Assembly (NCBI RefSeq): GCF_026210795.1
Contig: NC_089457.1
Location: forward strand, 1,550,001 to 1,614,000
From: Rhizophagus irregularis
Lineage: Eukaryota > Glomeromycota > Glomeromycetes > Glomerales > Glomeraceae
DNA length: 64,000 nucleotides
Direction of reading: 5' to 3'
This document shows, one piece after another, positions 45,790 to 53,214 of this stretch (the stretch's first letter is position 1; the number at the start of each line of letters is the position of its first letter). A program made the position numbers and the translations under genes. The notes beneath the pieces were generated by a model. It made no database searches, was not told the origin of the DNA, and saw nothing but the letters and a program-made list of their open reading frames with translations.

Positions 45790-47015
45790 AAAATCATACC
45801 GGCTGCTAAGGTCGTATTTAAAGCTCCGAACGGGTCGGTTCGGTTTGGCTTTTTTGCGGTTCAGGTAGAACCGAAAACCAAAATGGAACCGAACCGGAAC
45901 CGTCCAGTTCGGTTCAGTTCTATCCGAAATTAAGAAAAATGCGAAAAAAGGAATACACGACCATCCAGTGATCGTACAAGGACGAGCCATAGCTCGTTGG
46001 AATCCTCTCATCGAGACGCGTCGAATGGTGGTAAAATTAAGTCTCTAGCATCGATAGATCGTGAGATAGCCCATGGTGAGTGTTTCTTAAACAATTCGCA
46101 TTAGAAAACGATCTATCTATGCTAGTGACATCATTTTACCACCATTCGACTCGTCTCAGTGAGACGAATCCAATGAGCTAAAATTAGTCTTTGTGTAATC
46201 AATAGATGGCGTTTAATCGCTTGTATCGGAATTTTAATTTTTGACGTTCGAAAATTTAAAAAAAATGCGAAAAAACGAATACACGACCATCCAGTGATTG
46301 TAAAAAGACGAATTATAGCTCATTAGATTCGTCTCGTCGAGATGCGTCGAATGGTGGTAAATTCATGTCTCTAGCATACATGGATCGTTTTCTAATGCAA
46401 ATTTTTTAAGAAATACTCACCATGTGCTATCTCGTGATCTATCGATGCTAGAGACTTGATTTTACCACCATTCGACGCGTCTCGATGAGAGGATTCCAAC
46501 GAGCTATGGCTCGTCCTTGTACGATCACTGGATAGTCGTATATTCGTTTTTTTCGCATTTTTTCTTAATTTTGGATAGAACCGAACCGAACCGGACGGTT
46601 CCAAGTCCAAAACCGAACCGAGAACCGAACCGAATTTTTTGCCGATTCTGGATCGGTTCCCAGTTCAAACCGAAACCATTCGGAGCTTTAGTCGTATTAT
46701 CATAAAGATCAAAATCTTGTTCCCGGGATATGACTTTTTGTTCTTGTCCCAAGTAAAAATCCAGAACTCGGATATTTTCGTATTGTTTTTTTAAAGTATC
46801 AATTTTTGACGATTTTGTTCCAGGAGTACTACTAGAAACTGGCGTACATGTAGAAGCCGACTTGCTATAGCAGGTGATTTACTGGTAGAAGCCGACTTGC
46901 TGGTGACAGGAGAATCGCTAGTAGAAGTGGCAAGTGATTTACTGGTAAAAGCTGGCTTGCTAGTAACAGGCGATTTGCTGGTAGTATAGTAGTTTGGTTT
47001 TCCCTTTTGAGACAT
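45790..47015 (-). pseudogene. Accessory gene of element F, exon 1
   Basis: Starts MSQKGKPNYYTTSKSP at 47015 with TSKSPVTSKSA repeats, then after a frameshift reads KKQYENIRVLDFYLGQEQ and DFDLYDNT. It is cut by the foldback element 45819-46690, whose duplication GTCGTATT repeats the last codons. It then seems to reach a GTATGA donor near 45800. Later exons are not found. Confidence 0.65.
45819..46690. mobile_element. 872-bp foldback hAT-type element
   Basis: Ends TAAAGCTCCGAACGG and CCATTCGGAGCTTTA. The 8-bp duplication GTCGTATT lies at 45811-45818 and 46691-46698. Next to the ends are GGTTCGGTT-type repeats. Internally, about 200-bp arms (about 45930-46140 and 46360-46570) are inverse copies carrying CGAATGGTGGTAAAAT and ATCACTGGAT. 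No transposase. Confidence 0.88.
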
Positions 47016-47312
47016 GTTAAGAAAATTTATTTTCTAATGATACTTAGAGAAAGTTGAGAAGAAACATGAGAAAAAGAGGAGAGGAGGAAATCGAATTTAA
47101 CAGACTTTTATAGCTTAAATCATCAACAGTTGTATTTGAAATTAAGCTTTGTTAAACTTCAAACAAGTTAATAATTCTTAACGAATAATTTATTATGATA
47201 TCAATTTTACTTAAAAATTCTTTTTATTACAATACTTAACCTTCGATTTTCTAATGATTTAATCATAATAAATACTTAACGAATAGTTTATTATGATATC
47301 AATTTTACTTAA
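47016..47312. promoter_or_regulatory. Upstream region of element F with direct repeat
   Basis: TTATGATATCAATTTTACTT occurs at about 47192 and 47291, each preceded by CTTAACGAATA. The TTAA target of the next element lies at the end of the second copy. Probably the former divergent promoter of F. Confidence 0.4.
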
Positions 47313-47548
47313 GGGTAGAGTATTCGTTATAATTAATTTTTATTATAATAAATGTCCATTTGTTTTTGGTTCCAAAAACCCGGATTTGTTTATCTCCTTA
47401 AACACGAGGTGCAGATAAAAATATCGGCTAAATAAATTACCGCGTCTTGTACTAAAAATAGCTGGCTATACAAAATTAGAAATACCGGCTATATTAATTA
47501 ACCGTGTCTTGTAACTCTTTTCTTGCGAAATAAAGTTTCTTAGTCACA

Positions 47549-50500
47549 ATGACAACGTCAACTAAGGGTAAAAAGCAAGAAAAGTAATATTTATTATTAA
47601 GAAATTGAGAAATTCTTTAATGTTTTTCTATAGTTATTCAATTATTAAAACATTTTAGACTTCCTAACTGGGTACAGCATATGCAAACTTATAATCCTGC
47701 ACTGAAAATATTCAGAAGAGCAAACGGTGGATATATGTTTCGTGATACATCCAGAACACTAGAAGTTCTTTCTATCCATGCTGAACTACAAACAAGTAAA
47801 GAGTATTGCTCTAATCCATATTACCGTGCCATTACTAAAAAAGAAAATATACCAACTCCTCCATGGGTTCCTCTACTCCCTGGTTATTGTGTAATTGGAA
47901 AACTTTGTGGTCAATATATACGTTTAGAAATTCAAAGTAATAATGAAGAACACCTTATATATAGTTGGGAAATTTATGAAAATGTGGAAATGTCTGAACT
48001 TATATATTCGGGAGCAAATTCTGATTTTTTTGTAAGCATGAAAAAATACATAAAACTATCAGGAGAAATCTCTATTCCTGACGTTCTTGGTTTGCGTGAT
48101 CCTAATATAATTTATGATTTACAATTAAAAGTAAACTCAATTTATCCACATCTTTTTAACATTACTGCAACTAAATCTCAAAATAAAATTGCTAAGTTAA
48201 CTACTACTATGCAAAAGAAAGGAGAAAAACTACTAAAAAAAGTATCAGTAATCTCCCAACCGCCAATAATTTGTCATGGAATTGAAATCAAAGAACCAGG
48301 AATGCAATTAACTCCAGAAGCAACTTTAGCACTTGCAGTTGAATATGAAGCTTTGAAAAAATTAGAAGATACATCACGTAAACGGATCAAGCGAGCTAAG
48401 ACCAATAATGAATATATGAAAAACTTGAAATATAAGCTACATGAAGAAAAAGATCAAGAATTATTAAATAATTGGATACAAAAAACATTGGAGGAAACGA
48501 ATATTGGATCTACTATATTTGTTAGTACAGATCAGTATCTTACCAGCATATATACACAACCTTGTTTAACGTGCCACAACCTTGATTTGTCTAAAAAAAA
48601 ACTGGATGTTCATAGAATCGGTCATAATCTTCAAATTAAAATTAAGTGTAAGATCTGTCAAGGAATTACGGAATATAGTAATGAATCACCTAATGCACAA
48701 TTCTCTTCTCTTGCAGCAGGTGCAGGACTTGTTGGTGGTGTTAATAGGCAACAACTTCAAACTATATTTTCTATAATAAGTATAACAGCACAATCATCAA
48801 AAGGTCATTATCATAATAAACAAAATGAATATTTGGAAAAAATAAATGATGAAGCGGAGATAAGTGCACAAATTGCATTAACTAAAGCTATTGCACATAT
48901 TAAAGCAAAAGGAGAAAGAATATTACCCACTAGTTTTGATTGCTCTTGGTCTCACTGTCGGAATGCAAACCAGGCTAGTGGAGAACTAATATATCAAGGA
49001 AATCTTGATGGTAAAAGAAAAAAGACTTTGTCAATATTTAATAAAATAAAAACAAATTCAATTTTTTTATAATAGGATATGACCACAAACCTGTTATTGC
49101 TTTTGCTACTGCTGAAAAACCACGTAAATTAAAAAAAAGAAATGGCCAAGAATATGAGGTTTTTCATGGCAATCATGAAAAGACATCACGGCAAATGGAA
49201 CATGCAATATTATTACGAATTATTGAAAAAATTGTTCCAGTATTAGAAGCAGCTGAAGTACTTTTAGATATTGGAGTAGATGGTGATCTAAATTCAAATA
49301 AGACTTTAAATAATATTCCATGTGTGAGCAAAGTATATGCGGATTTAAAACATATTGGCAAAAATATTAGAGCAAAGATTGGTAAGTTATTGAAGGTAAT
49401 TTAAGTATTTTTACCAATAACATAATAACATAATATTAACGTAACAGTTTAACGTAATAAACAATCTTAAGTACTAATGATTTTAGATTATCTTTTTGTC
49501 ATTAGTATGCAGCTAGCTGATCATTTAAGCTTTATTTTATTATAATTTTTTTTGATAGAAAATTTTTATTTTTTTTTGCAAATATTTTTTACTCATAATT
49601 GTAAATATTTTACATTAGTTATGTAATAGAATAGATGTAAAAAGTTGTAATTATTTTCATTTTAATTACAAATAATTAATAAACTGCTAAATGTTTTATT
49701 TATTCTGATTCTCAATTATTAATTTTTCTATGTTGCAGCAAAAAGTTCTATGTGGAAAGAATATGAAAATACAATAATGACCTATTACAATTCATGTGTC
49801 TATGCAGCAAGTGGACGAAAACTTGATGAAAATAAAATTACTGTATCCGATGCTGAATTAGAAAAAGTACAAATTGATGGTCTTGTTGCTCACCTTTCAG
49901 ATGATCATAGTCTTTGTTGGGATGAAGTATGTTGGAGAAAAGAAAATCCTGATATTCAATTAAAAGCACCACATTTAAAAGAACATACATCTAGTCAAAG
50001 AGAGAAGTTTCGTCAATTTCTCAAAGAATGCTTTTATATACCAACAAAACAGAGCTTAATTACTCACATTAGAACATCATATAATGAAGCATTCAACCGA
50101 GTTAAATTATGCTTTCAAGATAAAAAAATTGATTATTGGAAAACCTATAGTACTCGACATGCTCTAGCTGTTCTTCAATATAACAATGGTCTGTTAAATA
50201 TGCTGAAAATTGCCCGATCAGCATGTAATATTCCATATTTTTCTGAAACTGATGAGAAAAATATTAGTAAAATAGCTGAAGAACGAAAAAAACAAAACCA
50301 AAGAAATTCTAATGATATTGCTAAACGAAATGAAGAACGAGGCAAAAAAATCCAAGAACAAAAAACTAACTTGGAAACATTTGATTGGGATAAGGTACAG
50401 TGAGCATCATATGCTAATTCAAAATTGAATAAATAAAATAAATAAATAACATAAAAAATATTTTCTTTAGGATTTTGTACCTTATGGACGTAATGTTCAA

Positions 50501-52672
50501 GAAAAAATCAAAGCTAAAGAATTTGAACCTACATTTGCCAAACATATACTTGATTTTGAAAAAATTCAGAAATGTTTGGCTTGTAAAGCATTTCCAAAGT
50601 ATTCTCCATTAGGCTTATGTCGATACCATGAATTTTGTTTCAAATATGGATGGTATCAGGAATTTCCAAATAAACAATATATACCACCACAACAAAATTT
50701 AATAGCTAATCCACCTACATCATATGATATACTTGTAAAAATGTTTGGATATCAAGAGTTTCAAGATATGCAGGAAATAGCAATATCATCATATGTAAAT
50801 GGAAAACATACCTTTATCTCAATGCGTACAGGTGCAGGAAAAACAATGTGTTATTGGATTTCTGCAATTTTACGTGGAGGTTTGACTGTTGTAATAAGTC
50901 CATTAGTATCTTTAATTGATGATCAAGTGGTAAGTTAAACTGATTATTTACTACAATTAATGAAAGAAAGATTATAATTTAATTTTTCTATAGATCGAAA
51001 CAATTGCTGCTGGAATTGGATGTGCTAGCATCTATACCGGAAAGCATCAACCTCCACAATATTTTGAAAAAGTCTTTTCTGAGATCGCTATTGGGTTGAT
51101 TAAAATCTTATATATAACTGCAGAAAGCTTTATCAACAATAGTTCATTTACCAGAATGCTTTTAAATTTCGCAAAATATGCACCTGTATCATTTGTAATA
51201 GATGAAGTGCATTGCATTATAGAATGCAAGCATTTTAGGTGAGATATAATTCAAATATTAATTTAAAAATTTTATTTGATATATTAAACTTAACTTATAT
51301 AGAGAATCCTGGAGTAAATTAAGAAAAATTTCAACATTCTTTCCAAGTAGTCCAATTATGATGCTTACGGGAACTTGCAAGGAATCTGATGCTTATCTAA
51401 TTTTGGAGAATCTTGGACTTGCTTCAAATGATGTGGCTTTTATTCGAGGGTTATCTTTTTCACGTCCAGAACTTACAATGAAAATGCATCCTAAAAGTAC
51501 TAAGGAAAAAACCATTGGAGAAATTATTACCCTATTAAAAGAATTAAATGAAGGGAAATGCATTATTTACTGTCCAACAGTACGAATATGTGATGATGTT
51601 TATGAGCAACTTCAGGAAAAATCTGGCCTTGGATTACCAATAGCTGTGTATTATAGTTCCTTAGACAGTGAAGAAAAAAAAAAAATTGAAATCATGGAAA
51701 GAGAATACAATCCAACTTATGATTGCAACTAATGCTTTTGGTATGGGTCTTAATGATAAAAAAGTTCGTTTGGTAATACATTATTCCTTTCCATTGAGTA
51801 TAGGTAAGACACTACTATTATATCAAAGAAATAAATATAATAGCATTATTAATAAAACTAATCTTACCCTTTAAAATAGGCAATCTTGTACAAGAAACTG
51901 GAAGAGCGGGAAGAGACCATAATCCTGCGAAGTGTATAATTTTTTATACCCGCCATGATATTTGCACTAATTATACAATTATAACACAAAGTAGAGAATC
52001 GTAAGTATTAATTGTGTAAAGAAATATAATTAATATTATGATTTAATTAAAAATATATTTTGTAGTATAACTGAAGATATAAATGATAGTTTTGAGGCAA
52101 ATAAAAGAAAAGAATACCTTGCCAAAGCATGTGAAAAAATATTTGAAGTTGTTCATTTTTGTGAAGATCAATATATCTGTAGAGAGCAAATGCTTGCCGA
52201 ATATTTTGCATGGAATGGTGATAATTTAAGTCCTCCATGTGCACATTGTGACAACTGCTTACGCGTACAAGCTGAGCTAGTACATGAAGTTGATGTAAAA
52301 ACTGATGCTATCAAAATGGTAGAGGTGGTTGAAGAAATAATAAATAAGCTGCATGAAAGTGGAAAATTAATTTCACCAAAAGATATCATACAGGTTTATT
52401 GTCAACTCAAGTGTGATAATGAAGAGCTTACCTCATTGAATATTTATCGTAAAACACGAAAAAAAATTGTCCGTACAAAAGCAGACGCTCAGCACTTGCT
52501 AGACTGGCTTATAATACGTGGAATGGTAAAAATATTGATAAACTTGTACCGGCCAAATCCAAATGGAAATACGTTGCAAACAAATATTCACATAGTTGGT
52601 GTTATTGAAGGTGTAACTGCAATAGTAATGGAAAAGAATTGGAAAATGTGGCTTCGCCATTCTCGAAGATAA
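47549..52672 (+). CDS. DDE-type transposase fused to RecQ helicase, nine exons
   Basis: Exons 47549-47583, 47659-49010, 49076-49381, 49739-50394, 50471-50929, 50994-51238, 51303-51803, 51880-52000 and 52066-52672. They give about 1426 residues if one A is ignored in the A12 run near 51670. Residues about 312-343 have a CxxC...CxxC zinc ribbon. FDCSWSH (about 439), GVDGDLNSN (about 529) and DHSLCWDEVCW (about 620) sit as in Mutator/Kolobok-like DDE transposases. Then come the helicase motifs: RTGAGKT (about 902), DEVHC with HFRESW (about 1005), ATNAFGMG and QETGRAGRD (about 1189), and a RecQ zinc cluster (C...CAHCDNC, about 1281). ATG at 47549 is the first in frame, with a GT-AG intron. The helicase call is firm; the DDE call is by motif. 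It probably excises and unwinds its own element. Confidence 0.85.
51670..51681 (+). other. Poly-A frameshift in the RecQ part
   Basis: A run of 12 A shifts the frame. With 11, the reading passes from SSLDSEEKK into SWKENTIQLMIATNAFGMG and all later exon phases fit. It may be a real mutation, an assembly error or a slippage site. Confidence 0.8.
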
Positions 52673-53214
52673 ATATATGTATATTTTATAAAATAATGTA
52701 TAAAATAATGTAATAAAATTTGTTTCTAAAATTAGAAAAGACTTATATGACGCGTCAACTCAAAAATGAACCAAAAATGTGGAACCCAATAATTTTCTTT
52801 ATTTCACATTCGCCAAAAACATATATACATTCGTGACCATTTTAAAACTTCATACGAAAGTTTTTCAAAAAAGTTTTTTAAACGAATATATCTTTTTAAG
52901 ATAAAAAATAGTGGTTCAGACCCGTGGCTTTCTAACCATGTAAATTTTATCCTTTTTTGTTAAGTATTACAAAAGTTGGTATTGCAATGAAAATCGTATT
53001 ACAGAATTTTTTTTTTTTGGACATTTTACTATAATAAAAATTAATTATAGCGATTTCTCTACCCTTAACTTGTTACAAATACTATTTGGATTTAAATCGA
53101 AGGTTCTAAAAAATTTCAAGTAAAATTGATTAAGAATTTACGTAAATTATTATAATCAAATTATTAGAAAATATACATTAAGAAATTATGAAAATCAAAT
53201 GATTAAATATAATT

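Follow-up and report, generated by a model that had tools for sequence, protein, structure and literature searches.

In this work we describe a transposable element in a 64,000-nucleotide stretch of the genome of the fungus Rhizophagus irregularis (contig NC_089457.1, positions 1,550,001 to 1,614,000), which as a whole is called the window here and is numbered from its first letter. The element occupies positions 47313-53064 (5,752 bp) with TTAA directly outside both ends, and it is almost certainly a KolobokH element (Kolobok superfamily), a DNA transposon of autonomous type present here in a non-functional copy, whose gene joins a DDD/E transposase to a RecQ helicase in a single protein. The first-pass annotation of this DNA had treated the combination of a TTAA target with a RecQ fusion as one that it could not name; a name exists, KolobokH (PMC9587614), and the element in the window is an example of a described lineage.

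In the sections of Kojima and Bao (2022, PMC9587614) drawn on here, KolobokH is a fungal Kolobok lineage, confined to fungi, in which RecQ lies downstream of the transposase. The same sections give Kolobok termini as RR..YY with TTAA, a feature that separates them from piggyBac, and describe a DDD/E transposase with a C/DxxH signature between the second D and the E and, in almost all but the Kolobok1 lineage, a zinc finger with a very conserved third C between DxxH and E. A Cladobotryum genome paper (PMC10989895), in the passage concerned, states that a similar structure has been seen primarily in Rhizophagus irregularis and refers to Kojima and Bao 2022 for this; the word Rhizophagus has no occurrence in the main text of PMC9587614, and the connection of KolobokH with this organism therefore rests on the citing paper. 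Set beside KolobokH, the window element shares the TTAA target, the RR..YY ends, the DDD/E transposase with DxxH and zinc finger, the downstream RecQ and the fungal host, and in the features compared there is no difference in kind, the window copy being frameshifted. Other lineages differ, as far as the cited sections describe them: KolobokE, KolobokD and KolobokP also join a Kolobok transposase to a second DNA-processing domain, but in each this is a nuclease (lambda-exonuclease-like, DEDDh or His-Me finger) and not a helicase as in the window, and their CCHC finger after the first D has no counterpart in the alignment of the window family. Kolobok-1_CCri, from a red alga, is likewise a Kolobok element with a RecQ helicase, which is however encoded on the complementary strand, whereas in the window it is fused on the same strand.

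Ends, target site and copies of the element

The 45-bp inverted ends with TTAA on each side claimed for this element were recovered at 47309-47352 and 53025-53068 (TTAA included), where 40 of 44 bases are complementary. When 47,881 pairs of TTAA spaced 3-8 kb apart in the window were scanned, the pair bounding the element matched at 36 of 40 bases and the runner-up at 25 of 40. The termini read 5'-GGG..CCC-3' and are thus of the RR..YY type beside TTAA given for Kolobok. Searched through the whole genome with zero mismatches, a degenerate 28-base end pattern occurs at eight places that form four facing pairs, and its reversed control gave 0 matches. These pairs bound four complete copies, on C8, C15, C28 and C29 (the last being that of the window), each between TTAAs, which are 97.5-99.1% identical over aligned bases and have different flanks (60 bases per side compared); the C15 copy holds two further insertions of 963 and 744 alignment columns. 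TTAA flanks all four of these copies and all three fetched copies of a sister family described below, at sites with differing flanks. The element is therefore mobile, and its ends are no inverted repeat arisen by chance. The first-pass annotation had proposed a genome search for further copies and had named ends unrelated to other copies as a result that would speak against it; the search returned the four complete copies, and the same ends bound each of them.

With one to three mismatches the end pattern has nine further places in the genome, one of them marking where a fifth copy, a partial one on C2, has its right end. Places at C23:1116705-1116732 and C31:1205623-1205650 have in common the end variant TTAAGGGTAGAGTACACACTATAATTAA, which departs from the pattern by two mismatches, and these are perhaps the ends of another related family. 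At L002 (C15:2420513-2428973) C>T and G>A changes make up 82 of 93 single-copy differences, with 42 of them in CpA and 15 in CpG, and in the window copy nine of 16 C>T/G>A changes stand in CpG context. The pattern resembles cytosine deamination, and CpG exceeds its share of the sequence.

Transposase and helicase in one polypeptide

Twelve relatives were fetched from the genome, among which L009, L010 and L012, and L013 and L014, are near-identical, so that the rows represent fewer than 12 independent families. Columns are called invariant when identical over rows with a residue there (at least 10 of 12), gaps and stops left out. Alignment A1 holds seven of 13 sequences (the window, L009, L011, L013, L015, L018 and L019); its rows were stitched from tblastn pieces with short insertions alone retained, L018 was cut at its first stop, and one stop in L019 was written X.

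Evidence for the transposase comes from the model PF20700 ('Mutator-like transposase'), for which a whole-genome search reported seven matches, all above the cut-off and all on loci of the same type as the element, that in the window among them; none of 14 control genomes matched. The match in the window (C29:1598566-1598997, 29.3 bits) covers part of the model only, 23-178 of 357, and in hmmscan three of the seven aligned members match PF20700, at best with 3.8e-16. Along the protein, FDxSW (D439), DGD, DxxH, an HHCC zinc finger and E681 follow in the order of the published Kolobok transposases (Table 1). The DxxH signature would accordingly lie between the second D and the E of the predicted catalytic set, and H616, H621, C624 and C629 of the zinc finger between DxxH and E are all invariant. 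By comparison of sequences, the catalytic residues are probably D439, D531 or D533, and E681. This revises a DDE core first drawn as FDCSW, DGDLNSN and DHSLC: the former two fit positions of the catalytic aspartates, but DHSLC belongs to the zinc finger that separates DxxH from the last E, and the likely catalytic glutamate is in NEAFN.

These features bear on two other origins for the element. TTAA on both sides would also be expected of a piggyBac element that had acquired a RecQ helicase, its target site then reflecting piggyBac chemistry, but the 5'-GGG termini are RR..YY ends, which by the published description set Kolobok apart from piggyBac, and the 11 Pfam families listed for the seven members include no piggyBac model while PF20700 appears in three; we consider this origin highly unlikely. 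AcademH elements, of the kind that the first-pass annotation had proposed for comparison, are reported to be likewise DNA transposons that encode a helicase, in animals and in fungi, and an Academ transposase with a helicase could to that extent account for the gene. The PF20700 match, the RR..YY ends with TTAA, and the DxxH and zinc finger of published Kolobok would, as features, place the window element in Kolobok and not in Academ, and an AcademH identity is in our judgement extremely unlikely.

In the helicase half of the KolobokH-type protein, the RecQ motifs called in the first-pass annotation are confirmed. Pfam identified DEAD (1.3e-22), Helicase_C (1.3e-10) and RecQ_Zn_bind (PF16124, 2.2e-8), the RecQ family model TIGR00614 matched both pieces (7.2e-53 for the first, 3.4e-29 for the second), and the best solved relative is E. 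coli RecQ (1oyw, 6.4e-35). DE[VA]HC is retained in all 12 relatives and the GRAGR of motif VI in 10, the letters at that place in L013 and L014 not fitting; an additional CxxC..Cxx[CH] cluster lies between the transposase and helicase halves.

That a Mutator/Kolobok-like transposase is joined to RecQ in one polypeptide, as first proposed, is borne out by the PF20700 matches and by the C22 relative L009, of the sister family, in which a single ORF (open reading frame) of 382 amino acids covers, without a break, everything between the transposase motif NESFN and Walker A of RecQ, so that the fusion there is independent of any splice model. Across the genome, the transposase search found about 30 loci (at least 81 matches), and 76 of 79 RecQ matches fall at transposase-matching loci. 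FastTree trees of the two halves show the same branching of families, with support of 0.85-1.00 on family splits, and differ solely in how they resolve three near-identical copies. In four of five pairs the transposase gave dN/dS values (the ratio of nonsynonymous to synonymous change) of 0.22-0.27 and the helicase values of 0.17-0.24, counts that omit stop codons and come from pairs of which three share members. Both halves are under purifying selection, and the trees and dN/dS are best accounted for, as far as such comparisons go, by one joining event that would have been followed by joint selection.

A host RecQ gene captured by chance would instead be a passenger rather than a working part. 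Transposons can carry host genes, and helicases are, in the excerpts of PMC10799480, the commonest domains derived from transposable elements in fungal fusions of host and element. Against such a capture, RecQ follows the transposase in the same place and on a single strand in all 12 relatives, some of which have 30-36% identity over the longest transposase piece; both halves share a family tree, the helicase is constrained in those four of five pairs, and L009 has a single frame across both parts. We regard a chance passenger as very improbable.

The three RecQ matches with no transposase match nearby are at C29:3236097-3236252, C21:1071486-1071638 and C15:3629883-3630233. The last is close to an end-like site at C15:3631597 and therefore may be a truncated copy, and one of the other two could belong to a host RecQ gene, none being otherwise seen in the RecQ search of the genome.

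Reading frame, sister family and evidence against

Nine exons can be joined in the window copy with GT..AG borders, as in the gene model of the first-pass annotation, which closed to about 1426 codons; the exons stand, and the closure does not. Exons 1 to 6 are open, and an open frame resumes within exon 7, in its second part, and continues up to the stop of exon 9. A change of frame at a run of 12 A in exon 7 has 1,144 codons before it and 281 after it, and the protein as it stands ends at codon 1161. Two of the three other complete copies are one A shorter in this run, and the C15 copy has the same count as the window. A programmed or transcriptional frameshift at the run was considered and set aside: with the extra A missing from two of three other complete copies, an ordinary indel or a homopolymer assembly error is the simpler account. 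Under the window splice model all four complete copies are interrupted: that on C28 has three internal stops, though no net shift, exon 2 of the C8 copy contains two additional bases, and on C15 the frame ends at codon 18, with a shift further on.

Table 1. Features of the element, in window positions; catalytic residues are predicted.
Feature	Position	Strand	Remarks
Left TTAA target-site copy	47309-47312	.	Sequence; TTAA on both sides in 4/4 complete copies, flanks differ
Left terminal inverted repeat, begins 5'-GGGTAGAG	47313-47352	+	Pair scan and genome pattern
Exon 1, start codon, 35 bp	47549-47583	+	GT donor next
Exon 2: N-terminal part, CxxC..CxxC zinc ribbon, predicted first catalytic D	47659-49010	+	
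Zinc ribbon C314/C317/C342/C345	48563-48658	+	Invariant in those relatives that have a residue at the place
FDCSW, with D439 as probable first catalytic D	48935-48949	+	Invariant among relatives
Exon 3: second D and DxxH	49076-49381	+	
VDGDLNSN, with D531 or D533 as probable second catalytic D	49276-49299	+	D531, G532 and D533 invariant
DLKH, the C/DxxH signature, residues 552-555	49342-49353	+	D to N in the C2 copy L008 only, 12 rows
Exon 4: zinc finger, predicted last catalytic E, C-terminal end of transposase half	49739-50394	+	
H616..H621..C624..C629, zinc finger between DxxH and E	49891-49932	+	All four invariant
NEAFN, probable catalytic E (E681)	50083-50097	+	NE[AST]FN in 12/12 rows
Exon 5: CxxC..Cxx[CH] cluster and RecQ Walker A	50471-50929	+	
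RTGAGKT, Walker A	50825-50845	+	GKT in 12/12 relatives
Exon 6: DEVHC (Walker B)	50994-51238	+	
Exon 7: MLTGT to IATNAFGMG, frame change within	51303-51803	+	
12-A run, frame lost in window copy	51674-51685	+	Sequence and copy comparison
Exon 8: QETGRAGRD (motif VI)	51880-52000	+	
Exon 9: RecQ zinc-binding domain, C-terminus and, at 52670-52672, the stop codon	52066-52672	+	PF16124
Right terminal inverted repeat	53025-53064	-	Pair scan
Right TTAA target-site copy	53065-53068	.	TTAA flanks of complete copies

A sister family on C22, C23 and C18, with an unfetched fourth copy on C20, is 5.19 kb long, has the left end GGGGAGTGTGTAGTCACGTG and termini GGGG..CCCC. Any two of its three fetched copies are separated by 2-5 substitutions and 2 gap columns over 5,191 columns, and the three lie at different sites, all flanked by TTAA. 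The C23 copy encodes an open protein of 1,426 codons when spliced by a sequence-derived model that includes two unusual donor sites (GTCAGT and GTTAGG) and has no transcript support, and the frame is broken in each of L009 and L012. Near-identical copies at three sites, together with the open C23 gene, indicate that this family probably moved recently. For eight of the 12 relatives a strict inverted-end search found no ends. A relaxed search at nine loci gave TTAA-anchored candidates starting with a purine at seven (L011, L013, L014, L015, L016, L017 and L019) and none for L008 and L018; five of the seven match at 11 of 16 bases, most beside chance-like rivals, and candidates other than those of L011 and L015 are weak. 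Relatives were also sought in viral contigs, with 29 pattern matches, and in bacterial and archaeal genomes, with 45, of which 0 were confirmed in either set.

Several results weigh against assigning the window element to KolobokH as a transposase-RecQ fusion. Four of the seven members have no PF20700 match in hmmscan, and hmmscan with Pfam finds none in the window's own protein, nor anything else meaningful in its transposase half, the locus being matched by the translated-genome search alone; the profile search of the N-terminal half that had been proposed at the outset succeeded with the translated genome and three of the members, and not with the window protein. A search of PDB with the seven-sequence profile found no DDE structure. 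It gave four weak rows that we take as chance, three of them chains of ribosomal L14 with a best E of 0.057 and the fourth the caspase Dronc (0.54), and the catalytic residues are those suggested by sequence comparison. On the helicase side, the TIGR00614 scores of 180 and 102 bits are below the curated whole-protein cut-off of 219.8 bits; such scores are expected of half-domains, although it is not established that half-domain status is their sole cause. The fifth dN/dS pair, L013 and L014, which are nearly identical and have few changes, gave 1.97 for the transposase and 0.67 for the helicase. The splice models are sequence-derived and have no transcript support. Finally, the joined flanks of the window insertion, searched in the genome for an empty site, gave three matches, all at the insertion's own locus, with no match elsewhere among the candidates scored.

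AT-rich repeated DNA surrounds the element (47173-47312 and 53108-53172). The left flank has a 42-bp direct repeat with copies 95% alike, and there are inverted matches between the left and right flanks; in view of these repeats and matches, the site of insertion may have been an older element with inverted repeats. Immediately to the left, a minus-strand frame at 46791-47033 is rich in Ser, Thr and Lys and contains imperfect tandem repeats (SKSPVTSKPA..).

A possible role for the helicase

By analogy with other Kolobok elements, the transposase part would bind the ends of the element, cut at TTAA and insert the element at another TTAA, whose 4 bp would thereby be duplicated. RecQ, carried to the ends by the fusion, would most likely unwind DNA at or beside the cut ends, or help the host to process the gap. 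A stronger proposal is that RecQ is an obligate working part of transposition, whether in end unwinding, gap copying or a replicative step, fused to the transposase a single time, in a common ancestor of the families, and maintained by selection since then; we put this forward tentatively, at clearly less than an even chance. In the excerpts of the literature consulted we found no experiment on why a cut-and-paste transposase carries its own RecQ helicase.

What is added here to the described lineage is that both halves share one family tree and similar purifying selection. The sister family, with an open gene and near-identical copies at different sites, offers a concrete system for asking whether the helicase joins in transposition, and if the helicase is indeed obligate, the open and probably recently mobile sister element of this same genome would allow that to be tested.

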